This document shows positions 2-16,248 of a DNA stretch of 29,400 nucleotides, in pieces. The number at the start of each line of letters is the position of its first letter. The stretch's first letter is position 1. Both the position numbers and the translations under genes were made by a program. The notes under the pieces are model-generated. The model saw only the letters and a program-made list of their open reading frames with translations, had not been told where the DNA came from and ran no database searches. This DNA is from a virus. Location of the stretch: positions 1 to 29,400 of IMG/VR virus record IMGVR_UViG_3300042197_001477, one strand, 5' to 3'.

Positions 2-130
2 ACAAATACACAGCTAGCTGAGTTAAATACTACAATGACACGAGTCGCAGTATTGTTAGAAGATAATAATAAACTTCTTCGAAATGTAAAAACTAATACA
101 AGGGCTACTTCCGGGAATCTAGTATCATGA
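2..130 (+). CDS. C-terminal end of an unidentified phage protein (5' end outside window)
   Basis: An open frame runs in from the left edge and stops at TGA 128-130, giving 42 visible residues that end in ATSGNLVS. The stretch is hydrophilic with leucine and valine in a heptad-like spacing (LAELNTTMTRVAVLLED), so a short coiled coil is likely. Its stop overlaps the portal start as ATGA (127-130), which implies translational coupling and membership of the same operon. In T4 the genes before portal encode sheath and tube proteins (gp18, gp19), but this tail end does not let me name it. Coding is supported by the overlap and by the absence of stops. The function is unknown. Confidence 0.6.
   Translation, partial: TNTQLAELNTTMTRVAVLLEDNNKLLRNVKTNTRATSGNLVS
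22..29 (+). promoter_or_regulatory. possible late promoter octamer GTTAAATA inside the upstream gene
   Basis: GTTAAATA followed by C matches the TAAATA core seen at the other late promoter candidates in this window. It lies about 100 nt before the portal start. Because it sits in coding sequence it may be chance. Confidence 0.25.
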
Positions 131-1830
131 GTTGGAAAAGACATTTTTCACCTGCACAAGGAGCAGCATCTGGTGCCTTATCACCGATATCTGGGTCAGG
201 ACCAGGCAGCAGACCAGGACCAGCTAGGACAAATTATAGCTCCTATCTTCCTGATGTCTACAGCGGCAGTCCTAATCGTGTTGAGCGTTATATGCAGTAT
301 GATACCATGGACTGGGATTCGGAAGTAAATGCTGCCTTAGACATACTCGCAGAATTCTGCACACAGAAAAACAAAGAAAATGGTACACCATTTACCTTAA
401 ACTTTAGAGGAAAGCCAACTGGTACTGAGATACAGATTCTCAAAGAATATCTGCAGCAATGGTGTAAACTACAAGAACTTAACACTAGGATATTCCGTGT
501 AGCACGTAATCTTTTCAAATACGGTGATGGTATTTTCATCAGAGATCCTGAAACACAGAAATGGTACTACGTTGATCCAGCTAAAGTTACTAGGATCATA
601 GTCAACGAAAGCGAGGGCAAGAAACCTGAACAGTATGTGATCAGAGACATCAATGTCAACTTCCAAGAACTGGTGGTCACACAGATCAATCCAAACACAC
701 AGAATCAACAACCCGGTGGTGCTGCCTATGTACAAGGCGGTAGTGGTGCTCGAGGTATGGTCAGCAACTATCCTCAAGCCGCAGGTACTAGATATAACAT
801 CGCACAGAACGAATTTGCTATAGATTCTAAACACATCGTACACATCAGTCTCTCAGAAGGTCTAGACAACAACTATCCGTTTGGAAACAGCCTTTTAGAA
901 TCTGTGTTCAAAGTCTACAAGCAGAAAGAACTGTTAGAAGACGCTATCATCATCTATCGAGTACAGCGTGCACCGGAACGCAGAGTGTTCTACATCGATG
1001 TAGGTAACATGCCCAGCCATCTCGCTATGGGATTCGTTGAGCGTGTAAAGAATGAAATACATCAGCGCAGGATTCCGTCATCAACAGGTGGCGGATCTGT
1101 GATAGATTCTGCTTACAATCCTTTGAGTATCAATGAAGACTACTTCTTCCCGCAGACCGCAGAAGGTCGCGGAAGCAAAGTCGACACACTACCAGGCGGT
1201 ACAAATCTAGGCGAAATCGACGATTTAAAATATTTCACTAATAAACTGATGCGTGCTCTGCGTATCCCCAGCAGCTATCTACCAACTGGTGCAGATGACA
1301 GCCAGAGCCAATACAACGACGGTAGAGTCGGAACTGCTTACATACAAGAGCTAAGATTTAACAAATACTGCGAAAGACTGCAGAGTTTGATGGTAGGAGC
1401 CTTTGATCAAGAGTTTAAGTTTTACCTCTATAATAAAGGTGTTAACATTGATTTCAGCATCTTTGATCTTAGATTCCAAAGTCCGCAGAACTTTGCTGCT
1501 TACAGGCAGGCTGAACTAGATAATCAACGTATCAGTACGTTCTCGCAGATGGTACAATTGCCATTCGTTTCTAAGAGATTTGCTCTTAAGAGATTCCTTG
1601 GAATGACTGATGAAGATATCGCAGAAAACGAGCAGCTCTGGAAAGAAGAAAACGGTGAAGGCAAGCCTATATCAGATGCTGCCGGCGAACTCAGGGGCGC
1701 TGGAATCAGCCCCACAGGCATAGAAGCTGACATAGGAGATGCGCAGGGCACTGAAGAAGCGCCTGCTGACATGGAAGTGCCCGACATGGGCGCAGAAACT
1801 CCGGCTGCTGGAACACCTCCTCCGGTATAA
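127..1830 (+). CDS. gp20: portal vertex protein, T4 gp20 family
   Basis: The protein has 567 aa, close to the usual length for T4-like portals. It forms the dodecameric ring at one capsid vertex, starts prohead assembly, and later carries the packaging motor and neck. The gp20 signature LPGGTNLGEIDD is at residues 355-366, followed by a helical segment with RALRIPSSYLPT, the region conserved among gp20 proteins. The N-terminus is Gly/Pro/Ser-rich, followed by RVERYMQYDTMDWDSEVNAA, typical of marine T4-like portals. The C-terminal 60 residues are acidic and Pro/Ala-rich, a flexible tail. The ATG overlaps the upstream stop (ATGA) and no strong Shine-Dalgarno site is visible, so coupling is likely. 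Family assignment is firm; the start is chosen by coupling and N-terminal similarity recalled from relatives. Confidence 0.96.
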   Translation: MSWKRHFSPAQGAASGALSPISGSGPGSRPGPARTNYSSYLPDVYSGSPNRVERYMQYDTMDWDSEVNAALDILAEFCTQKNKENGTPFTLNFRGKPTGTEIQILKEYLQQWCKLQELNTRIFRVARNLFKYGDGIFIRDPETQKWYYVDPAKVTRIIVNESEGKKPEQYVIRDINVNFQELVVTQINPNTQNQQPGGAAYVQGGSGARGMVSNYPQAAGTRYNIAQNEFAIDSKHIVHISLSEGLDNNYPFGNSLLESVFKVYKQKELLEDAIIIYRVQRAPERRVFYIDVGNMPSHLAMGFVERVKNEIHQRRIPSSTGGGSVIDSAYNPLSINEDYFFPQTAEGRGSKVDTLPGGTNLGEIDDLKYFTNKLMRALRIPSSYLPTGADDSQSQYNDGRVGTAYIQELRFNKYCERLQSLMVGAFDQEFKFYLYNKGVNIDFSIFDLRFQSPQNFAAYRQAELDNQRISTFSQMVQLPFVSKRFALKRFLGMTDEDIAENEQLWKEENGEGKPISDAAGELRGAGISPTGIEADIGDAQGTEEAPADMEVPDMGAETPAAGTPPPV

Positions 1831-1833
1831 ATA
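1826..1833 (+). promoter_or_regulatory. T4-type late promoter octamer TATAAATA
   Basis: This is an exact match to the T4 late consensus TATAAATA. It overlaps the portal stop codon (TAA 1828-1830) and ends five bases before the ATG at 1839. In T4 the octamer spans about -13 to -6, so the predicted transcript start falls on the ATG itself. Confidence 0.55.
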
Positions 1834-1838
1834 TTTCT

Positions 1839-2075
1839 ATGATATTGAGAGAACTATTTTATTTCAATAGAGATACCGGCGATATGTATCAGAATGATAG
1901 ATATCTCTCTTCTCGCGATAAGACTCCGCTGGAATATTCGGACACTAGAAAGACTAGATTGACTCTGGGACAGATCAACGAGATACGTAGGGCCGCAGAA
2001 TCTCACATCAAAGAACAGCAGAAAGAGCTGGAATTCATAGCCAGGATGTACAGCACACCACCAGCAGAAGCATAG
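1839..2075 (+). CDS. 78-aa conserved head-cassette protein, function unknown
   Basis: A small, strongly charged protein. The N-terminus MILRELFYFNRDTGD precedes a predicted long helix, LTLGQINEIRRAAESH onward, rich in Lys, Glu and Arg, ending PPAEA. I recall similar small proteins following portal in marine T4-like phages, but I cannot name a function. Position between portal and the core protein suggests a virion or prohead role (inference). It starts nine bases after the portal stop. No Shine-Dalgarno sequence precedes its ATG, while TATAAATA lies just upstream, so it may be read from a leaderless late transcript as well as by reinitiation. It ends in TAG, two bases before the next ATG. Confidence 0.8.
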   Translation: MILRELFYFNRDTGDMYQNDRYLSSRDKTPLEYSDTRKTRLTLGQINEIRRAAESHIKEQQKELEFIARMYSTPPAEA

Positions 2076-2077
2076 AG

Positions 2078-2656
2078 ATGACGATATCTTTCGTGCTGGG
2101 CAACGGGCGTAGCCGCCTAGCAATCGATCCTCAACTACTAACACGCAAAGGAAAAACATATGGTTGCAATGCCATATACAGAGATTTCCTTCCTGATTAC
2201 CTCATAGCAGTTGATCCTAAGATGATCGTAGAAATCAATGAAAATCGAGTGCAATATACCACACATGTTTGGACTAATCGCAATTCTAGATTTAAAACTT
2301 TTGACAGATTAAATTTTTTCGAACCCAGTAAAGGGTGGAGCTCAGGACCGTCGGCGCTGTTATTGGCCAGCATGCACAAATCTACCGAGGTTTATATCCT
2401 AGGGTTTGACTATCAAGGCATAGAAGGACGACTGAACAATGTCTATGCTGATACACAGAATTATAGGAAAAGCACAGATCCTGCTACCTATCACGGTAAT
2501 TGGTCGCGGCAGACCGAAATGATAGTAAAAGAGCATCCGGACATCAACTACTATAGAGTCACAGACCCTAATCCTTTAGTCCTCGATTGGAACAATAATT
2601 ATAAAAATTTTCGTAATATCACTTACACAGAGTTTAAAGATAAGTTTTCCTTATAA
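2078..2656 (+). CDS. putative glycosyltransferase-like protein (GT42 sialyltransferase / DUF115-MptE-like Rossmann fold)
   Basis: The protein has 192 aa. It opens with a hydrophobic strand and a nucleotide-binding-type turn, FVLGNGRS (5-12), then ID (16-17), YGCNAIY (28-34), DYLIAVD (40-46), SSGPSA (88-93) and EVYILGFDY (104-112). This order matches the CMP-sialic-acid-binding half of GT42 enzymes such as Campylobacter CstII: GNGxS, CN, then SG and G(I/F)D. As I recall CstII, its first 34 residues align without gaps at G8, N9, G10, S12, I16, D17, C30, N31 and Y34. DUF115/MptE-like proteins share the fold. A possible catalytic His is H139 (YHGNW). Neighbours are head genes, so it could modify a virion or host-surface component, but activity is not shown. 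The gene follows the 78-aa gene by two bases and ends just before a terminator. Confidence 0.75.
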   Translation: MTISFVLGNGRSRLAIDPQLLTRKGKTYGCNAIYRDFLPDYLIAVDPKMIVEINENRVQYTTHVWTNRNSRFKTFDRLNFFEPSKGWSSGPSALLLASMHKSTEVYILGFDYQGIEGRLNNVYADTQNYRKSTDPATYHGNWSRQTEMIVKEHPDINYYRVTDPNPLVLDWNNNYKNFRNITYTEFKDKFSL

Positions 2657-2670
2657 AACGATCTATTTTT

Positions 2671-2693
2671 AACCGGTATTGACCGGTTTTTTT
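2671..2693 (+). terminator. Rho-independent terminator
   Basis: The inverted repeat AACCGGT (2671-2677) / ACCGGTT (2682-2688) has a four-base loop and runs into a T tract (2687-2693). It lies 14 nt after the stop of the 192-aa gene and closes the portal transcript. Confidence 0.85.
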
Positions 2694-2701
2694 ACGATAA
2701 T

Positions 2702-2709
2702 ATTAAATA
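2702..2709 (+). promoter_or_regulatory. late promoter octamer ATTAAATA
   Basis: ATTAAATA followed by C lies directly after the terminator and 57 nt before the gp67 start. It shares the TAAATA core with the other gap-located octamers and would drive gp67-gp21-gp22-gp23. Confidence 0.6.
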
Positions 2710-2766
2710 CTTCGACAGCCTTTAGGGATAGATTATCTCTTTTAATTTAACAAACAGGAGAAAGAC

Positions 2767-3657
2767 ATGTCTGATAGAAATAAACTAGAACAGATGCTTG
2801 AGCATCTGGTTAACGATAACAGAGAAAAAGCCGAGGAACTATTCCACGAACTAGTGGTAGCAAAATCTCGCGAAATTTACGAAAATCTGCTTGACGATGA
2901 TGTACAAGTAGAAGACAGCGACGAAGAAATCGAAGAGGCTTCCGATGACGAAGATCTAGACGAAGCTTCCGACGACGAAGATCTAGACGAAGCTTCCGAC
3001 GAGGAAGATCTAGACGAAGCTTCCGACGAGGAAGTTGACGAAATGTTTGGAATGAACGAGCTAGGTGGCGATCCTGCCGATGATATGATGTCTGCCGTAG
3101 AAGTAGGCAGCGATGACGAAGCAGGAATGGATGACATGATGTCCGACGAGGGCGGTGACGAGCCAGCTACCAAAGACGACGTCCTAGACATCAAAGATGC
3201 CCTAGAAGAACTAAAAGCCGACTTCGAAGCCATGCTAGCAGGCGAAGCAGAAGAAGATGAGGAAGAAGGCGAAGAGGAAGAAGGCGACGACGAAATGGAT
3301 TTTGGTGACGACGATGACGAAGAAAAGAAAGAAGATTTCGTCCGCGAGTACACTGAAAAAAGAACAGCGACCATGGGCGACAATGGTGCTAACACCAAGT
3401 CTGCGGTAGCTGGAAAGAACGATATGGGCGGCACAACCGCAAATATCGCCAAGAGCTTTTCTACAGAAAAAGGCGGCACGCAAGGTGGTCTAGCCAATCC
3501 TAGTCCTAAAGACATGAACACCGGAAACGTAAACAAAGTCGGTGGAACCAATGCTAAGTCGTTCTACAGCAAAGACAGCAAAGGGCATGGCGTAGAAAAG
3601 AAAGGTAGCGGCGACAATGGAGCCAATACCAAGAGCCTAATCGGCGGAAAAAAGTAA
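2767..3657 (+). CDS. gp67: acidic prohead core protein, T4 gp67-like, enlarged
   Basis: The protein has 296 aa, against about 80 for T4 gp67. The N-terminal ~40 residues (LEQMLEHLVNDNREKAEELF, then VVAKSREIYENLL) parallel the short helical head of T4 gp67. Next comes a very acidic region containing four copies of a nine-residue unit (ASDDEDLDE type), then a helix-prone stretch (DDVLDIKDALEELKADFEAM), more Glu/Asp runs, and a Gly/Asn/Lys-rich basic tail holding GDNGANTKS twice. T4 gp67 is an internal core protein destroyed by the head protease, and this protein should act likewise. A strong Shine-Dalgarno AGGAG stands seven bases before ATG. Its position before gp21-gp22-gp23 agrees. The N-terminal match and acidity are what I see; the family name is inference of good but not certain strength. 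Confidence 0.78.
   Translation: MSDRNKLEQMLEHLVNDNREKAEELFHELVVAKSREIYENLLDDDVQVEDSDEEIEEASDDEDLDEASDDEDLDEASDEEDLDEASDEEVDEMFGMNELGGDPADDMMSAVEVGSDDEAGMDDMMSDEGGDEPATKDDVLDIKDALEELKADFEAMLAGEAEEDEEEGEEEEGDDEMDFGDDDDEEKKEDFVREYTEKRTATMGDNGANTKSAVAGKNDMGGTTANIAKSFSTEKGGTQGGLANPSPKDMNTGNVNKVGGTNAKSFYSKDSKGHGVEKKGSGDNGANTKSLIGGKK
2938..3042 (+). repeat. in-frame 27-bp tandem repeat, about 3.9 copies
   Basis: Units start at 2938, 2965, 2992 and 3019. Each begins GCTTCCGA and contains GAAGATCTAGACGAA, encoding ASD(D/E)EDLDE. Units 2 and 3 differ by one base and the last is shortened. This is coding sequence within gp67. Confidence 0.95.
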
Positions 3658-3671
3658 TCTAGGATCAGAAG

Positions 3672-4301
3672 ATGAGTTTCTACTTAAGAGAGAACCTAAC
3701 ATTCGATCAAGCCCGAATGGTCGTGGAATCGGATGGTGCTGACGGTAAGAACCTTTATATGAAAGGTATCTGCATCCAAGGCGGCATCCGCAACGCTAAC
3801 CAGCGTGTGTATCCTGTGAGCGAGATCTCTAGGGCTGTCAAAACACTAAACGACCAAATCACTAGCGGATATTCGGTTCTCGGCGAAGTAGATCATCCAG
3901 ATGATCTAAAGATAAACTTAGATCGCGTAAGCCATATGATCACAGAGATGTGGATGGAAGGACCAAATGGCTACGGAAAGATGAAAATCCTGCCCACACC
4001 CATGGGACAGCTGGTTAAAACCATGCTAGAAAGCGGTGTGAAGTTAGGTGTCAGTTCGCGCGGATCCGGAAACGTTCGAGAGGACGGTTCCGGTGAAGTG
4101 TCTGACTTTGAGATTATCACCGTTGACGTTGTGGCGCAGCCCAGCGCACCAGGTGCTTATCCTACCCCTATATATGAACATCTCATGAATACTAGGGGTG
4201 GATACAAGGCATTTTTAACAGCACAAGAAGTTCAAGGCGACAAAAAGGCACAGCAATTTATCAAAGAAAGCCTATTAAAAGTAATAGGTGGACTCCAATA
4301 A
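3672..4301 (+). CDS. gp21: prohead maturation protease, T4 gp21 family
   Basis: The protein has 209 aa, the usual size. This serine protease is built into the prohead core and cuts scaffold, core and capsid proteins after (L/I)-x-E, allowing shell expansion. The catalytic His is in GEVDHPDD (His75) and the catalytic Ser in KLGVSSRGSG (Ser128 or Ser129), spaced as in T4 gp21. The NANQRVYP segment (41-48) and DFEIITVDVVAQPSAPGA are also typical of the family. It starts 14 nt after gp67 with a TAGGA site upstream, and is followed 14 nt later by gp22, the canonical T4 order. Family assignment is firm; which of the two serines is the nucleophile is not settled here. Confidence 0.95.
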   Translation: MSFYLRENLTFDQARMVVESDGADGKNLYMKGICIQGGIRNANQRVYPVSEISRAVKTLNDQITSGYSVLGEVDHPDDLKINLDRVSHMITEMWMEGPNGYGKMKILPTPMGQLVKTMLESGVKLGVSSRGSGNVREDGSGEVSDFEIITVDVVAQPSAPGAYPTPIYEHLMNTRGGYKAFLTAQEVQGDKKAQQFIKESLLKVIGGLQ

Positions 4302-4315
4302 TAAAGGAGAATCAC

Positions 4316-5407
4316 ATGTTGGATGCATTAAAAACACTATTCGAAAACAATGTGATTTCTGAGGAGATCAAAGCTGATATCGAACGTGCTTGGGATAAAA
4401 AAATCCAAGAAAATCGAGAGTCGGTTACAACTCAACTAAGAGAAGAGTTCGCACAAAAATATGAACATGACAAGCAGGTAATGGTCGAAGCCATAGATCA
4501 GATGATCACAGATCGTCTGACAGCAGAAATCCAAGAGTTTACCGAAGATAGAGCACAGTTGGCAGAAGCAAAAGCCAAATATACTCTAGCGATTCGTGAG
4601 CATTCTGGCAAGCTAAATGATTTTGTACTAACAAGTTTAGCCAAAGAAATCACAGAATTACACGAAGATCAAAAAGTCATGGCCAACAACTTCGCGAAAT
4701 TAGAAGAGTTTATAGTTGAATCTCTAGCTAAAGAAATCGTAGAGTTTAACCAAGACAAAAAAGACCTTGCAGAAACCAAAGTACGTTTGGTCAAAGAAGC
4801 CAAGGTACAATTTGCTCAGCTCAAGAGCAAATTCATCAAACAGACTGCCGGACTTGTTGAAGACATAGTTTCCAGAGGTCTTACCAAAGAGATCACACAG
4901 CTCAAGGAAGACATCGATCAGGCCCGCAGAAATGATTTCGGTCGTAAGATATTTGAAGCTTTCAGCACAGAATATCAACACAGTTTGCTCAACGAGAAAT
5001 CAGAGACATCAAAACTGTTAAAGATCGTTGACGAAAAAGAACAACAACTCGAGGAAGCTAAACAAGCGATTTCTGAAAAGCAGCGCCTTATCGAAAGCAA
5101 AGAGCAAGAAGTAGCTCGCGCTCAAGCTGAAGCTGCTAGGAAAGAAGTGCTAGGTGAGTTACTCAACCCTTTAAGCAAAGATCAAAAGGAAATTATGTCA
5201 GAGTTGTTAGAAAGTGTGCAGACTTCTAAGCTACGTTCTAGCTATGAAAAGTATCTACCAGCAGTATTAAATGGTGGCACACCGGAGAAGAAGAAGGCTC
5301 TTGTAGAGGCTAAGGAAATCACAGGCAATAAAGAAACAAATAGCATTAGTAGTGCTAATAGCCAGGCCGATGTAATCGACATCCGTCGCCTTGCTGGATT
5401 AAAATAA
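4316..5407 (+). CDS. gp22: major prohead scaffold protein, T4 gp22 family
   Basis: The protein has 363 aa, almost wholly helical and charged, with no cysteine: the internal scaffold around which gp23 assembles, later degraded by gp21. It is longer than T4 gp22 (about 270 aa). The extra length is explained by four related segments, LTAEIQEFTEDR (68-79), LAKEITELHEDQK (108-120), LAKEIVEFNQDKK (137-149) and LTKEITQLKEDID (189-201). Three contain an I-x-E site for gp21 at the same place. Residues 240-290 are a strong coiled coil (KEQQLEEAKQAISEK). The C-terminus IDIRRLAGLK resembles conserved gp22 ends. AAGGAG precedes ATG. Family and order gp21-gp22-gp23 are firm. Confidence 0.93.
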   Translation: MLDALKTLFENNVISEEIKADIERAWDKKIQENRESVTTQLREEFAQKYEHDKQVMVEAIDQMITDRLTAEIQEFTEDRAQLAEAKAKYTLAIREHSGKLNDFVLTSLAKEITELHEDQKVMANNFAKLEEFIVESLAKEIVEFNQDKKDLAETKVRLVKEAKVQFAQLKSKFIKQTAGLVEDIVSRGLTKEITQLKEDIDQARRNDFGRKIFEAFSTEYQHSLLNEKSETSKLLKIVDEKEQQLEEAKQAISEKQRLIESKEQEVARAQAEAARKEVLGELLNPLSKDQKEIMSELLESVQTSKLRSSYEKYLPAVLNGGTPEKKKALVEAKEITGNKETNSISSANSQADVIDIRRLAGLK

Positions 5408-5418
5408 GGAGAATTTAA

Positions 5419-6588
5419 ATGTCAGAACTACTAGAAAGCCGCTGGCAAGAAACTAAAGAGGCACTATTAGAAGGCCTTCAAGGAACTAAAAAGTCGGTAA
5501 TGTCAGTTACTTTAGAGAATACTCGCAAGTACCTTTCAGAATCTGCTACAGCTGGTTCCACTTCTGCCGGTAACGTTGCAACCCTAAATCGTGTGATCCT
5601 TCCAGTGATCAGACGTGTTATGCCAACTGTCATTGCTAATGAACTAGTTGGTGTACAACCTATGACTGGTCCAGTTGGTCAGATCCATACTCTACGTGTT
5701 AGATATGCTGATTCTGCCGATGGCGTAACAGCAGGCGATGAGGCACTCAGCCCATTCAATATCGCTCGTGCCTACTCTGGTAACAACGTAGATACTGGTC
5801 CTAAAGCTGCTTCTACTGCTACCCTTGAGGGCGTGGCCGGTAAGAAAATGAGCATCCAGATCCTCAAGCAAACTGTTGAAGCTAAAACTCGTAAGCTCAG
5901 CGCACGCTGGACTTTCGAAGCTGCACAAGATGCACAAGCTCAACAGGGCATCGACATTGAAGCTGAGATCATGGCTGCTCTTGCACAAGAGATCACAGCT
6001 GAGATCGATCAAGAGATCCTTGCTTCTCTACGTAGCCTAGCCGGCGCAGCTCTTGAGACATATGATCAAGCTGCTGTTTCTGGTACAGCTACATTCGTTG
6101 GTGACGAGCATGCTGCTCTGGCTGTCCAGATCAATCGTGCTTCTAACATCATCGCTCAGCGTACACGTCGTGGTGCTGGTAACTTTGCTGTGGTTAGCCC
6201 ATTAGCATTGACCATCCTCCAGAGCGCGACAACTTCTGCATTCGCAAGAACTACAGAAGGTACATTCGAAGCTCCAACAAACACCAAGTTCGTTGGAACT
6301 CTGAACTCCGCGATGAAAGTCTACGTTGACACCTATGCTCCAGACACCACAGCAGTGCTGGTTGGATACAAAGGTTCCAGCGAGAGTGATGCCGCAGCAT
6401 TCTACTGCCCATACATTCCATTGATGAGCAGCGGTGTTGTTCTTGACCCAGCAACATTTGAGCCAGTGGTTAGCTTCATGACAAGATACGGATATGTTGA
6501 GTTAACAAACACAGCATCGTCTCTTGGTAATGCTGCTGACTATCTTGCCAACGTTGCTATTACATCTGCAAACGTCAAGTTCAGCTAA
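5419..6588 (+). CDS. gp23: major capsid protein, T4 gp23 family (short form)
   Basis: The protein has 389 aa, versus 521 in T4. It forms the hexamers of the capsid shell (HK97 fold). The gp23 signature is VIRRVMPTVIANELVGVQPM (63-82) followed by TGPVG (83-87), and the C-terminal FMTRYGYVEL is also typical. The N-terminal ~41 residues are helical and charged and end LSE41-SATAG, a good (L/I)-x-E site for gp21, so the mature chain would be about 348 aa. The shortness suggests that the surface insertion domain of T4 gp23 is reduced or absent, an inference to test by structure prediction. AAGGAG lies seven bases before the ATG, and the gene is closed by a strong terminator. No gp24-like vertex gene is seen in the window. 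Confidence 0.95.
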   Translation: MSELLESRWQETKEALLEGLQGTKKSVMSVTLENTRKYLSESATAGSTSAGNVATLNRVILPVIRRVMPTVIANELVGVQPMTGPVGQIHTLRVRYADSADGVTAGDEALSPFNIARAYSGNNVDTGPKAASTATLEGVAGKKMSIQILKQTVEAKTRKLSARWTFEAAQDAQAQQGIDIEAEIMAALAQEITAEIDQEILASLRSLAGAALETYDQAAVSGTATFVGDEHAALAVQINRASNIIAQRTRRGAGNFAVVSPLALTILQSATTSAFARTTEGTFEAPTNTKFVGTLNSAMKVYVDTYAPDTTAVLVGYKGSSESDAAAFYCPYIPLMSSGVVLDPATFEPVVSFMTRYGYVELTNTASSLGNAADYLANVAITSANVKFS

Positions 6589-6734: not shown

Positions 6735-7100
6735 ATGGGACGTCCAGTAAACAAAAGATATTTTGGTAGCCCTTCCACAGGTGCTACACCAGGTGATAAC
6801 ATCCGTGTAACAGCTAAACTAACCGGCGAAACAGTCGGTGACGGATTTATTGTAAAACAAAAAGGCACTAAAAAATTCCAAGTCACGGTTGGTGCAACTA
6901 CACAGATCTGTACCGTGGTTGACAAGGCCGCAGGTGCGCTAGCCGACGGTGAAATGACACTGTTTGGCGTTACTTCAGCAACAACAGTTAGATTGGCCAA
7001 GCTTTACAACAGGACTGCCAGAGACTTCGCTGGAAATAGATACAAGTGGTCCGTGGTCGACGATTCTACAGCTAACTATATTCAGCTCGTAGCTATCTAA
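6735..7100 (+). CDS. 121-aa small virion protein, function unknown
   Basis: A small, basic, beta-rich protein beginning MGRPVNKRYFGS and containing the segments DGFIVKQKGTKKFQVTV and TTQICTVVDKAAGALADGEM. I recall similar MGRP(V/L)NK-type proteins near gp23 and fibre genes in marine T4-like phages, usually called structural or hypothetical. No signal peptide, membrane helix or catalytic motif is visible. The ATG is preceded by a strong AGAGGAG site. It is the first gene after the head terminator, led by a late promoter and a structured leader, which points to high late expression. A decoration or fibre-base protein is possible, but this is inference only. Confidence 0.8.
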   Translation: MGRPVNKRYFGSPSTGATPGDNIRVTAKLTGETVGDGFIVKQKGTKKFQVTVGATTQICTVVDKAAGALADGEMTLFGVTSATTVRLAKLYNRTARDFAGNRYKWSVVDDSTANYIQLVAI

Positions 7101-7113
7101 TCGAGTAGACATT

Positions 7114-8052
7114 GTGGCTAGGATAGTTAAAGTCAATGACAACGACTATAGGATAATAGTCGACTCTGGTGGTACAATAACTCTAGACACCGGAGAAAAT
7201 TCCGGAGGAGTTTTAGTTACCGGAAACTTATCTATCCTTGGCACCGTCTTTAACATCACCGCAGACAACACTTTTATCAAAGATAACATAATAGTCCTAA
7301 ATGAAGGTGAAACAGGGCTAGGCATAACTCCAAACCAAGGCAAAGCTGGTCTAGAGATAGATCGAGGTCAGAGAAGTAATGCATTCTTTTATTTCGATGA
7401 AAATATCTCAAGGATCGGTCAAAGCGCCGGACCAAATTTTATCGGAGCATTCTCTCTAACCAACTCTAACGATGATCTAGTACCGCTGAGAACTTCGCAC
7501 ATCAACACTAATGGCGGAAATCTTTTTCTGATCAATAACGGCACAGGAGTAATATCCGTAGAAGGTACGGTAAATTATGAATCTCGAGTAGTCAACGACG
7601 ATCACATACCCAATAAAAAATATGTCGACGATGCGATCATCGCCTATGCAGCCGACCCGATGAAGATCACAGAAGGCACCTCAACATTAGAGATCGACGA
7701 TGATGGAGCAGATTCTTTCTTATTGCTGACTCTAAACAGCCAAGTAAATGCGGCATGGACTAGAGAATTTCACACAGTCCAAGACATCAAAATCATCGGT
7801 AATAGGATAGAGCCAAGGAGAAGTTATCAAAATCTAGTGTTGTCCGCTACAGGCACCGGTCATGTGCAAGTCGACGATTCTTTGCAGTTAAAAAAGATTC
7901 CTTTCGTTCCTACAGGAACCAGCGACAGTACTATAATCTACGGAGGAGATGCGGGTAGAGGTGAATCGGGAGTGTATTTTAAAACTTCTGATAATAATGG
8001 CGGTGAATTGATAAGCGCGAGACGTGCTTTGGCTTTTAGCGTGATATTTTAA
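7114..8052 (+). CDS. 312-aa fibre-like virion protein
   Basis: It begins at GTG with the family-like start MARIVKVNDNDYRIIVDSGG. Strands of the type ITLDTGENSGGVLVTGNLSI and DNIIVLNEGETG follow, then GLEIDRGQRSNAFFYFDE. The many short beta strands with Gly and Asn turns suit a trimeric fibre or beta-helix protein on the virion. HIPNKKYVDDAI (near residue 165) is a motif frequent in phage fibre chains. Thirteen bases separate it from the previous gene, with only a weak GAG as ribosome site. The GTG start is preferred because the preceding sequence in frame gives no better start and the N-terminus matches relatives recalled from marine phages. The exact function is unknown. Confidence 0.82.
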   Translation: MARIVKVNDNDYRIIVDSGGTITLDTGENSGGVLVTGNLSILGTVFNITADNTFIKDNIIVLNEGETGLGITPNQGKAGLEIDRGQRSNAFFYFDENISRIGQSAGPNFIGAFSLTNSNDDLVPLRTSHINTNGGNLFLINNGTGVISVEGTVNYESRVVNDDHIPNKKYVDDAIIAYAADPMKITEGTSTLEIDDDGADSFLLLTLNSQVNAAWTREFHTVQDIKIIGNRIEPRRSYQNLVLSATGTGHVQVDDSLQLKKIPFVPTGTSDSTIIYGGDAGRGESGVYFKTSDNNGGELISARRALAFSVIF

Positions 8053-14400: not shown

Positions 14401-14459
14401 CTTCGTTTAACACGAACAGCCTGCAGATAAAAGTATTAAAGACTTATATAGAAATTTAA
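8412..14459 (+). CDS. 2015-aa giant tail-fibre / virion surface protein with beta-helix domain
   Basis: Domains in order. Residues 1-85 are a base module with ARYNTDTDEFEGYNGVAW, common in phage fibres. At 197-226 RVYCSAKVGDDLNDGILKP and LRRALQIA form the first part of a right-handed beta-helix (DUF1565-like). Residues 228-548 are a mostly helical insertion with two related units, YNEDLCKRDTYLI (237-249) and YDSTKCRRDTKLI (388-400). From 551 the beta-helix resumes with VKITVAVASGEYNEENPLII, then VSVVGDGLRS. Three later modules share an IGGL...YYV pattern. NKGGTGLSSYAVGDLIY precedes a C-terminal beta domain ending LKTYIEI. The chain probably acts as a trimeric fibre or whisker reaching the host surface. 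Translation is coupled to the 117-aa gene (ATGA). Fibre class is well supported; receptor and exact position on the virion are unknown. Confidence 0.88.
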   Translation: MKFLKQNNINPKRITDKSVYVNMNGEVVLTPDAERNVDIESDRAMRMPRGPNSSRPVGEKGLARYNTDTDEFEGYNGVAWASLGGVRDVDGDTFILAEPFPGANTNELEFSTNGIISTTANRFGIKTKKASTTELEVIQLNPDNSEGNNVVSIEASEDMTTSYRLTLPQSLAAPGTFLGLGVNGQLLFESLDQAGNRVYCSAKVGDDLNDGILKPVKTLRRALQIASGLVYKPTFEYNEDLCKRDTYLIISAAGYDGVYNSNWQVTKAALTYYMATASEVVTTQKTKTLEALNFLKTKILELPVTQTTITRWTARLNNVITIFDQGPTSAPGFGGGAVFMDDPVDIDAGVSTAKELLLDNVEFIADEVIAWINARIAVGTGIWSEFTYDSTKCRRDTKLIVYSVIYDLVYGGNTQSRDAGLKYYDGLGDDSTSGQLQIPGQVPQTVAAIERAKSVAQLVAQNLPVTVSGTLANTQNFSSPGGSLDAATTVGDLFDIVTNIVANGTTAAPIAVLPTATQNVALAADKLILDQSADRLADNVIAYTSGYVPNGVKITVAVASGEYNEENPLIIPDNVSVVGDGLRSCIIRPINANRDMFKVRNGCYFTEFTFRDKLDENGVPTNTWNYAFSFDEPNNVAINRIGYGKLPLTKPTISTSPYMQNCSMISFLGGNGVLVDGNLVNTPNTPPLTQEVEKPVDLVDGVPEQGKSMVANAFTMISFGGTGWRLINDAYAQLVSCFQIFMLNGTYCQSGGYVSITNSATNFGKYALRASGYSPNAFTFDRGYIAGNGLFEGEQTLKVVGYGRIPVNHFVLRFRNAQNIDVTEDFKPALEEKTFNAATAVNTFANIITVTSHGYSEAQEVLYLTNGNPPIGGLDENQIYYVGIVDSNNIKLYFDVDKTLEVALTATSTGNHSLLSNVEEFFINAIIDSHNVYQRLTLAAGTYTFTPGATITASVSGVTANAYVYSYDSNTRQLVISINKIPVGVGQERVLFTTGSQIDADQGSATNISITGADRLTDIFSAEFTVKSTVTNNQIANISTLTNFQLYLHRPSIVNSSSHTWEYAGSGIDYNSLPQNGGKTDTKFEQFSELPGRVYTSGTNELGDFKVGDFITAENKTGNISFRNKVIVSELTALKLSLSDIEIEQLSIDVGLGDNEPGGATNTRLSTQLAIRSFLRNRLGKFIDKDLSTNSVPGAVVQLNSSGQINADLIPATRNFSVNSAEGYNGRLVLADDIPAANILAGDIASEEYEKVTITLSSAVNGGVDGELITQPSTGAQGYLIGDVNGSNVINVGSINREFGIDFVSGQPVNVGDSTAFAVSSVSAISDESINYFLSNDSFSQYLIVSQDYNFTVGNTITSVVNQAQGTITAEINGVLTAVNNAGIAGGTGYDPAVGSRTYYNVPLTNITGSGTNARADITVSNGAVTIVDIHRGGSGYQVGNILSANHSNLGGIAPSQAFQITVSGVENRLYINLVGNIKFIGSSSSPDFVEDNNPSTFTVTLTDSTVLNFAAPSVGGNVDYPNSRINISHSFSNGDPVMYASGPNLAIGGLTDQQIYYVKVIDSTNIELYTEYSLVSKAIFTSDSTGTHSLTRSAVMPDIETIVSVNHGLSAGDAIKIAGNDLPVPLLTNTYFYVGSVTVNSFTLHTNRGEALTSAAGVTVNPQLLADTGSGTATFTKQNVAITGVINTSSKTAANWKLVNASTIDASSIVSGVIATSRLADSGTANSGTFLRGDSTWSPAVASIKTTTATSPLSITGDGDNTNGYYGTLSIDVERVDAISGTALYSSLGTARFLLEQFEVGLESQGTAGNIAIRNGVIDAGTLDGFDSSYFLNPANLTSAVPINKGGTGLSSYAVGDLIYANSAVTFGKIAIASKNKLLAVTEPVPGTLAPGWIEDITVQTAKIGVSKTGTSSIAISSTFPIVVDSFDKSVYRSANYVVQISNLTDLSYQISEILVIHNGATISKINEFGATTTNNVAKGTFTTNIVGNNCRLLFTSFNTNSLQIKVLKTYIEI
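10953..13443 (+). repeat. three dispersed ~70-aa beta modules within the 2015-aa fibre
   Basis: Modules at about 10953-11158, 12987-13190 and 13216-13443 share the pattern H-x2-(S/L)...G or A...(P)IGGL-x4-(I)YYV-x2-(V)-(D)S-x-(N)-I-x-L. Examples are IGGLDENQIYYVGIVDSNNI and IGGLTDQQIYYVKVIDSTNI. The third copy is more divergent and lacks IGGL. Confidence 0.7.
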
Positions 14460-14893
14460 ATTAGATCTACGATCTTAAAAACCGTATCTAGTTTAAGTCT
14501 CAGAGATTTGTTAGAAAAACTGCTACGGAGCCCCTGATGCAGAGGTTTTGGTGCTAGATCTATAGTCGCCCACGCCCAGCCAGCGTGCTCTTCGCTGAGC
14601 TGCGGTATGAATTCGTCTTCTATGACACAGAGATAGGTGTGGAAATTAAAGATCTTATCATTAGAAATAAACGTCTCTAATGGTATCGATTTGATAACAT
14701 CCGGCAAGAATCCAATTTCTTCTTTGATTTCTCGTTGCAGCCCCTGCCATGCCGATTCGGAATCTTGGGTAGTGCCACCTACTAGTCCCCAAGTTCCTCG
14801 ATGTTTGCCCGTGCTTTTCTGTAGAAGCAAGAATTTTTTAGTGTTACGAGCATAGAAAAGAGCACCTGAGCAGATTATTTGATCGCTGAGCAT
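14456..14893 (-). CDS. Nudix hydrolase
   Basis: The protein has 145 aa and a perfect Nudix box at residues 40-62: G40-x5-E46-x7-R54-E55-I-x-E58-E59-x-G61-F62. The two Glu of REIKEE bind the metal used to cleave nucleoside diphosphates linked to another group. The lead strand IICSGALFYARNTKKFLLLQ (6-25) and GTWGLVGG (33-40) are standard for the fold. I place the start at MLSDQ (14893). A longer reading to 14965 would overlap the gp15 end and adds a non-homologous-looking N-terminus. No strong ribosome site is visible, so coupling to gp15, 14 nt upstream, is likely. The substrate is unknown (nucleotide sugar, ADP-ribose, NAD or mRNA cap are options). Its stop overlaps that of the opposing 2015-aa gene. 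Confidence 0.92.
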   Translation of the reverse strand: MLSDQIICSGALFYARNTKKFLLLQKSTGKHRGTWGLVGGTTQDSESAWQGLQREIKEEIGFLPDVIKSIPLETFISNDKIFNFHTYLCVIEDEFIPQLSEEHAGWAWATIDLAPKPLHQGLRSSFSNKSLRLKLDTVFKIVDLI

Positions 14894-14907
14894 GCTAGTA
14901 GTTATTG

Positions 14908-16248
14908 CTAGAGTATCAAGCGCCAGCGATCTCTTGGATATTCGCCTTCGAACGCACGAACCCACTCGCCTTCTTCAAACTTGTACTGTATCCCAGTACG
15001 ATCATTTTTAGCGTAACGGACCTCTTCGGCGTTCCTAGAGTCAAAAAGCACAGTCCACGATGTTCCATCGAATCCGATGATGTCGTTGGCATTAGCAGTA
15101 AATCCCTCGGGCCACGCACGATCTGCGCTGTCTATGTCATTGTCAGGATCCGTGATATCATTTAATATGATATATTTTGAACCAGCTACGGCAGAAAAGC
15201 GACTGAACTTTTCGGGATCGATGATAGCATTGACATAATAATCGTTGCTGGTAAAAGTATCTTGGTCAAAGTTAACGATTAACTTAGTTTCGTCGAGCTC
15301 ATTGACAGCTACGGTACCTACGATCTCATAGCCGTTAGCTTGTTTTAAGAATATCTGCGATGATCCAGCTTTGAATTTTCCACCGTACTGATCTAATAGC
15401 ACACGCCAATTTATATCGTTTCCGTGTTTCTTAAAAGCTTCCTGTTGATCTAAAGGCAGAGATTCTATGACTGCTTTCTTTTCTAAGAGATCGATAAAGT
15501 ATTGCTGTGTGTTTTTATTGAAGTAGACAAAGACATCAAACCCACCTATGGTCACATGTTCTTCTGTCAAGAACGTGTAATCAGTGTCATGTATGTTGGC
15601 TATGATGCTGTGTATAACTCCAAGGCGCTTTACTTTAGTCGGAGGGCTGATCCAGATAGGAGTCTCAAAAGTTAGTGTACCAATATCTATCTCTGTTTCT
15701 GCGCCCATGGGTATGGTTCTCGAGCTGAAAGTTATGTCTTTGAGCTCTACCACAGACAGACTGGTCCAGTCCACGTAATTGTCTGTGGTCTGTATTTCTA
15801 AGCTGGGATTAAACAGCATCAATATCTGTTCCATGATCTGTAATTTTTGATCAGTGTTTGACGTCCATATATCAATCTTGACTGTGAGCCCGTATGGTGT
15901 GGGCATCAATCTTTCTACGGTATATGCTGAACCTTGAAACTGTGTATATTCTCCAGTGTCGGGATCTATGTCTCTTTCTCGGAGATGCATTTTGCTGACG
16001 AAGGTAGAATCTCCTACCCGCGACCTATCTAGCTGTAGATTAGATATGTAGACGGCTATCCTAGGCACAGAGGGTATCTTGTTTTCAGAATTGTCTCTGA
16101 TGATATGACCAACCTGTCTAGTCAGATCTCCGTACATCACAGGAACCACGATCTGTTTACCATCACCGGTCTGGTATTTAAAGTTACTGAACAATCTGAT
16201 CAGCTGACCAACATATCTACGTATCTGGCCGTCATAGAACCATTGCAT
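14908..16248 (-). CDS. gp15: tail sheath stabilization / tail completion protein, T4 gp15 family
   Basis: The protein has 446 aa, versus about 272 in T4. gp15 caps the tail tube and sheath and joins the tail to the neck. The N-terminus FYDGQIRRYVGQLIRLFSNF (4-23) matches the T4 gp15 opening (FYNSSFRRY...LFSN). The core continues with PTPYGLTVKIDIWTSNTDQ and QIMEQILMLFNPSLE (137-151), where T4 has a SPIKMIYELSIFTRYED / QIVEQILPYFQPH region, then LTFETPIWISPP (192-203). From about residue 230 to the end there is an extension absent from T4, finishing in YKFEEGEWVRAFEGEYPRD. Start and gp14 stop share one base (TAATG), so the two are coupled. The family call is firm from the N-terminal 200 residues. 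Confidence 0.9.
   Translation of the reverse strand: MQWFYDGQIRRYVGQLIRLFSNFKYQTGDGKQIVVPVMYGDLTRQVGHIIRDNSENKIPSVPRIAVYISNLQLDRSRVGDSTFVSKMHLRERDIDPDTGEYTQFQGSAYTVERLMPTPYGLTVKIDIWTSNTDQKLQIMEQILMLFNPSLEIQTTDNYVDWTSLSVVELKDITFSSRTIPMGAETEIDIGTLTFETPIWISPPTKVKRLGVIHSIIANIHDTDYTFLTEEHVTIGGFDVFVYFNKNTQQYFIDLLEKKAVIESLPLDQQEAFKKHGNDINWRVLLDQYGGKFKAGSSQIFLKQANGYEIVGTVAVNELDETKLIVNFDQDTFTSNDYYVNAIIDPEKFSRFSAVAGSKYIILNDITDPDNDIDSADRAWPEGFTANANDIIGFDGTSWTVLFDSRNAEEVRYAKNDRTGIQYKFEEGEWVRAFEGEYPRDRWRLIL

Follow-up and report, generated by a model that had tools for sequence, protein, structure and literature searches.

The described systems closest to the gene studied here are the GT42 sialyltransferases, in which the general base is a histidine (His188 in CstII and His202 in CstI) (PMC4202792), and the Maf/DUF115 proteins, among which the Maf enzymes transfer Kdo or Neu5Ac from CMP donors onto Ser/Thr residues of proteins (PMC11339370). 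On phage particles, glycans have been reported on the capsid and tail tube subunits of mycobacteriophages (Freeman et al. 2023, as cited in PMC12619734). Our search of open-licence papers found no description of a sialyltransferase-like gene adjacent to a T4-like portal gene, and the literature yielded no biochemistry on the family to which the present gene belongs. The gene lies in a 29.4-kb virus record from a T4-type phage (IMGVR_UViG_3300042197_001477), here called the window; it encodes a GT42/DUF115-like protein of 192 aa at 2078..2656 on the plus strand and is referred to as GT. Many large T4-type water phages carry this small, conserved, sialyltransferase-like gene between the portal gene and the remaining capsid genes, and from its sequence the encoded enzyme probably attaches an acidic sugar to some late-infection product, perhaps the virus head.

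The GT reading frame begins with an ATG at 2078 and ends with its stop at 2656, and the confident AlphaFold model of the protein (pLDDT 96.3, pTM 0.92) shows a domain of alternating alpha and beta elements in which residues 109 to 139, approximately, form a long loop. The first-pass annotation of this DNA had listed GNGRS at residues 8-12, ID at 16-17, CN at 30-31, SSGPSA at 88-93 and GFDY at 109-112, and all five are where it put them. We aligned 83 family members with 28 to 67% identity to the window GT, and all of them keep N9, S12, R13, C30, N31, D46, G90, G109, D111, N121, Y129 and W142. The GNGRS motif (2099..2113, plus strand, as are all motifs of GT) provides N9 and S12 and is followed directly by R13, with G8 and G10 present in 82/83 homologues; the CN motif (2165..2170) is found in 83/83 and carries the same residue numbers as the CN of CstII. 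The Maf/DUF115-like motif PDYLIAVD (residues 39-46, 2192..2215) has P39 in 79, D40 in 77 and D46 in all of the 83 sequences. G90 is the invariant residue of SSGPSA (2339..2356), and the segment made up of GFDY and a putative lid (residues 109-142, 2402..2503), a loop in the model, holds the invariant D111, N121, Y129 and W142. Loss of GNGxS and CN among homologues had been one half of the annotation's own refutation test, and because both are retained across the alignment, that half came out in its favour. The family has at least 595 confirmed relatives in IMG/VR, and dN/dS between pairs of GT orthologues is 0.05-0.15, a sign of purifying selection, so GT is confirmed as a real and strongly conserved gene. 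All 14 members of our first alignment matched phrog_30607 ('unknown function'), the window GT at 5.6e-32, and eight of the 14 matched phrog_4603 ('alpha-2,3-sialyltransferase'), the window GT at 2e-4. Annotated phage relatives are few, namely the pelagiphages HTVC008M (two accessions, one phage) and Mosig.

Searched alone against Pfam, the window GT matched no family, PF06002 (GT42) and PF01973 (MptE-like) included, and the PF06002 model was also unmatched by the 14 members of the first alignment. When the 14-sequence profile was compared with the PDB, nine GT42 chains ranked at the top (E 4.5e-4 to 0.2), and with the 83-sequence profile GT42 chains were recovered at E 3.2e-6 to 6.1e-5 with nothing else below 0.5. 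Genome searches with PF06002 for a GT42 alignment gave one good member, and the comparison with GT42 was therefore made with PDB sequences and one ORF; this bacterial GT42 ORF aligned to the GT family over 125 columns (hhalign E 2.5e-6). The first-pass annotation had given a match to CstII without gaps over the first 34 residues at nine identities. The match is indeed gapless, the two proteins agree in the numbering of N9, S12, C30 and N31, and we count 11 identities instead of nine; the number of relatives, the dN/dS and the GT42-only PDB matches show that it is more than chance. Three of the 14 members matched PF01973 weakly (best E 3e-4), and together the profile, PHROG, PF01973 and hhalign matches bear out the proposed homology to the GT42/DUF115 superfamily. 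We also considered whether Maf/DUF115 might be the nearest family and rejected this, because the GT profile missed 30 bacterial Maf proteins and hhalign aligned only 25 columns. Maf proteins contain a PDxxxxxDP motif (PDxxxAIDP), and D46 of GT lies in the matching motif. The profile is nearer to GT42, yet the motif is as in Maf, and we therefore place the family between GT42 and DUF115, nearer to GT42 by sequence.

The active site appears to differ from that of GT42. H139, which had been put forward as the catalytic histidine, is a histidine in just 13/83 homologues and was discarded; close to it, N141 (76/83) and W142 (83/83) are conserved. Y123 (81/83) and Y129 (83/83) have the spacing of the CstII lid tyrosines Tyr156 and Tyr162, in a region, the lid, where the profile alignment is uncertain. 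In our reading of the alignment, D46 stands opposite Asn51 of CstII, and we propose that D46 or D111 may act as the catalytic acid/base. A sialic-acid pathway in the phages was also considered and rejected, NeuB being found in 0/15 related phage records and a CMP-sugar synthetase in 1/35. Since the general-base histidine is missing and the 15 records contain no NeuB, the notion of a canonical GT42 sialyltransferase is not supported, and GT is better described, as far as its sequence tells, as a GT42/DUF115-type variant.

The genes around GT belong to head assembly and, like GT, are all on the plus strand. The portal protein of the T4 gp20 family (127..1830; PF07230, E 2e-110) is followed by orf78, a small conserved cassette protein (1839..2075; phrog_13986), GT, an acidic 296-aa cassette protein recognized by synteny (2767..3657), a prohead protease of the T4 gp21 family (3672..4301; PF03420, E 8.8e-26), a scaffold-like protein (4316..5407; phrog_10922, with a PA5oct-group homologue annotated as scaffolding) and the major capsid protein of the T4 gp23 family (5419..6588; PF07068, E 3.4e-99). 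The PA5oct counterparts of orf78 and of the acidic protein are virion proteins by mass spectrometry, and the nearest isolates for the window portal and scaffold are jumbo phages such as Phosso, Atu_ph07 and PA5oct. The acidic protein has tandem acidic repeats of the DEASDDEDL type, encoded by repeated gacgaagcttccgacga blocks at 2920-3030 of the window. Among loci having both flanking genes, a set that includes some contigs twice because two queries retrieved them and that was partly gathered with GT as the query, GT lies between orf78 and the acidic gene in 125; the order portal-orf78-GT-acidic-protease-scaffold-capsid is kept as far as each contig extends. Of the loci found via the scaffold protein in which the interval is present, 38 have GT and 12 lack it. 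In three loci (L048, L050 and L060) GT is duplicated in tandem within the head cassette. Three contigs labelled as bacterial MAGs (L103, L104 and L113; Neomarinimicrobiota, for example) contain phage head genes together with the GT family, and are therefore probably phage contigs binned into MAGs. The window also has a NUDIX hydrolase gene (14456-14965, minus strand) among its tail genes.

Expression signals at the locus, as judged from motif matches, suggest that GT is transcribed with the portal. The element TATAAATA (1826..1833, plus strand), which overlaps the portal stop and resembles a T4 late promoter, occurs near the portal stop in 58/137 loci. GT starts 2 nt past orf78, and a terminator-like hairpin with a T-run (2671..2693, plus strand) follows GT and closes the portal-orf78-GT unit; close relatives have the same hairpin, and in the phages inspected that lack GT at this site it lies directly after orf78. 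Beyond it, an element consisting of TATTAAATA and GACAGCC (2701..2720, plus strand) precedes the acidic gene in phages with and without GT alike, GACAGCC being present in 116/138 loci, where it lies downstream of a TAAATA-type box. From the 2-nt gap, the hairpin and TATAAATA at the portal stop, GT appears to be the final gene of the portal late unit. Synteny and these signals agree with the first-pass proposal that GT is made together with the portal.

In 12 IMG/VR loci and in PA5oct, orf78 is followed directly by the acidic gene. These empty sites are clean, mostly of 117 nt, and with the 125 occupied loci they make the embedding of GT in the head cassette far stronger than first claimed. As the cassette is otherwise intact in the 12 loci and in PA5oct, GT appears to be dispensable for head assembly. 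In a 77-row tree of the scaffold protein, presence and absence of GT require three changes, versus a mean of 9.6 when shuffled, a pattern compatible with an ancestor of the clade that had GT and with two later losses, PA5oct being the outlier. The distances of GT follow those of the portal (Mantel r 0.66) and scaffold (0.65), versus 0.93 between scaffold and portal, implying mainly, not strictly, vertical inheritance. In three GT-minus contigs of 153-278 kb, no family member was found elsewhere. GT is thus an accessory gene, yet one of long standing in the head operon of a single phage lineage. The same observations bear on the idea that GT is a non-enzymatic relative whose GT42-like fold serves in the structure or the assembly of the head. 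The conserved cassette position and the missing catalytic histidine would suit such a use; the retention of N9, S12, R13, N31, D46, D111, N121 and Y129 in 83/83 sequences, including relatives outside the cassette, is not what a structural role would predict, and GT has been lost cleanly with the remaining cassette intact. We regard this explanation as very improbable.

Relatives outside the lineage adjoin UvsY/UvsW, ThyX, gp59 and gp32, genes of replication and recombination, instead of head genes, and the family as a whole is therefore not tied to heads. One T4-type phage locus (L017:2634-6457) has three paralogues close to ThyX, gp59 and gp32, and two of the three are neighbours. In a 270-kb phage contig (record G402) a second, divergent paralogue adjoins a PTPS-family gene, with a UV-endonuclease gene nearby (L243:6560-7846, minus strand). 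Such neighbourhoods could point to a nucleotide-dependent enzyme without sugar-transfer activity, which might be a pyrophosphokinase of the archaeal MptE kind or might have modified nucleotides or DNA as its substrate: PTPS genes are of pterin or queuosine type, and ThyX, gp59, gp32 and UvsW neighbours, the PF01973 matches of 3/14 members, the position of D46 within a DUF115-like motif and the absence of the GT42 histidine would all fit. However, the profiles are clearly closer to GT42 than to Maf/DUF115, the cassette copy has no linked pathway gene, and expression would be late and with head genes, unlike that of the T4 DNA-modifying transferases, which act during replication. We therefore think a non-sugar enzyme quite unlikely, and GT is probably a sugar-nucleotide transferase, the reading that best fits its similarities and conserved residues.

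If GT is such a transferase, its donor and acceptor may be sought in the genomes that carry it. CMP-Kdo is synthesised by Gram-negative hosts, and one GT-plus record (G406, 98.6 kb, the contig of L066) has adjacent genes for KdsA (1.4e-79) and KdsB (2.4e-29) at L242:2454-3885 on the minus strand, which points to CMP-Kdo synthesis by the phage. A CMP-sugar synthetase is absent from the other 34 of the 35 records, many of which are fragments, so that the link to CMP-Kdo comes from one genome, and CMP-Kdo, though the likeliest donor, is one that we name with considerable doubt. As to the acceptor, the place of GT in the cassette and its late expression speak for a virion protein. Between two GT-minus clades and their GT-plus relatives, no acceptor signature lost with GT was found in the head proteins, and the portal, orf78, protease, scaffold and capsid proteins show almost no differences between the two groups. 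The many differences in orf312 and orf121 were considered as such a signature and rejected: the two GT-minus clades lie apart on the orf312 tree, which indicates rapid divergence instead of an allele in common. These two genes, located after the capsid gene (6735-8052 of the window), evolve very fast (orf312 has 60% identity to L114, versus 94% for the capsid protein), have no Pfam or PHROG match and are possible decoration or host-contact proteins. Action on a virion protein is a tentative reading, to which we give somewhat less than an even chance.

The main rival to a virion acceptor is modification of the host lipopolysaccharide. A late transferase would attach an acidic sugar, Kdo or some other, to the LPS core or O-chain of the host, altering receptors and thereby blocking re-adsorption of progeny or adsorption of other phages. 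GT42 enzymes do use lipooligosaccharide as a substrate (PMC4202792), and glycosyltransferases of pelagimyophages have been proposed to alter the host O-chain (PMC7029224). In our data, kdsA/kdsB, a pathway of the LPS type, occur in one GT-plus phage, and a GT61 gene is found on a MAG contig that also has a relative of GT (L105). However, GT is fixed in the head late unit, whereas the pelagimyophage glycosyltransferases are reported to lie largely in the host-recognition cluster (PMC7029224), and a membrane segment is not apparent in the 192-aa globular model. We consider a surface modifier unlikely.

Returning to the reading in which GT modifies the virion, the model and the conserved residues suggest how it might work. 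GT would be a minimal enzyme, with a single alpha/beta nucleotide-binding domain and a lid loop, and would bind a CMP-activated acidic sugar via N9/S12/R13, C30-N31 and S89-G90. The lid (residues 110-142) would close over the bound CMP-sugar, D46 or another invariant acid would replace the missing GT42 histidine, and the sugar would pass from the CMP donor to the acceptor. With less assurance, the donor may be CMP-Kdo, made by Gram-negative hosts and by at least one GT-plus phage itself; the acceptor may be a virion protein made late, a head protein being the most plausible; and heads might then bear an acidic sugar without needing it for their assembly. Our overall reading, that GT is a late accessory CMP-sugar transferase of the GT42/DUF115 superfamily modifying a late, possibly head, protein, is one that we put only a little short of even. 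The most specific version is unlikely by comparison: in a widespread T4-type jumbo-phage lineage, an enzyme that resembles GT42 but lacks its histidine would draw on CMP-Kdo or a comparable acidic sugar and, by a catalytic arrangement new to the superfamily, glycosylate a protein of the portal, prohead or capsid while the head is being assembled. If GT does modify the virion, a lineage common in aquatic metagenomes would encode a T4-type head-glycosylation step in its capsid operon, and head glycosylation, if true, could affect particle charge, stability and adsorption. The natural empty-site relatives are a ready control set.

Compared with the known systems, the GT phages are unrelated to the mycobacteriophages with glycosylated virions, and head glycosylation in the former is our proposal. 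At about 276-285 aa the pelagiphage homologues are longer than the window GT (192 aa), and their genes are found outside the head cassette, not inside it; GT is also shorter than the GT42 PDB chains (about 259-303 aa). Like GT42 (CstI and CstII), GT has GNGxS followed by CN, an SG motif and a GxD strand end in a comparable order. Unlike GT42, the family has PDxxxxxD with the invariant D46 and the invariant W142, and has no conserved catalytic histidine. With DUF115/Maf it shares the PDxxxxxD motif after the second strand, the GxD strand end and the absence of a GT42-type histidine, whereas its CN motif was not seen in the Maf sequences examined. GT thus represents a compact family that mixes features of GT42 sialyltransferases and of Maf/DUF115 without the known catalytic base, and its mechanism would therefore inform how the superfamily works.
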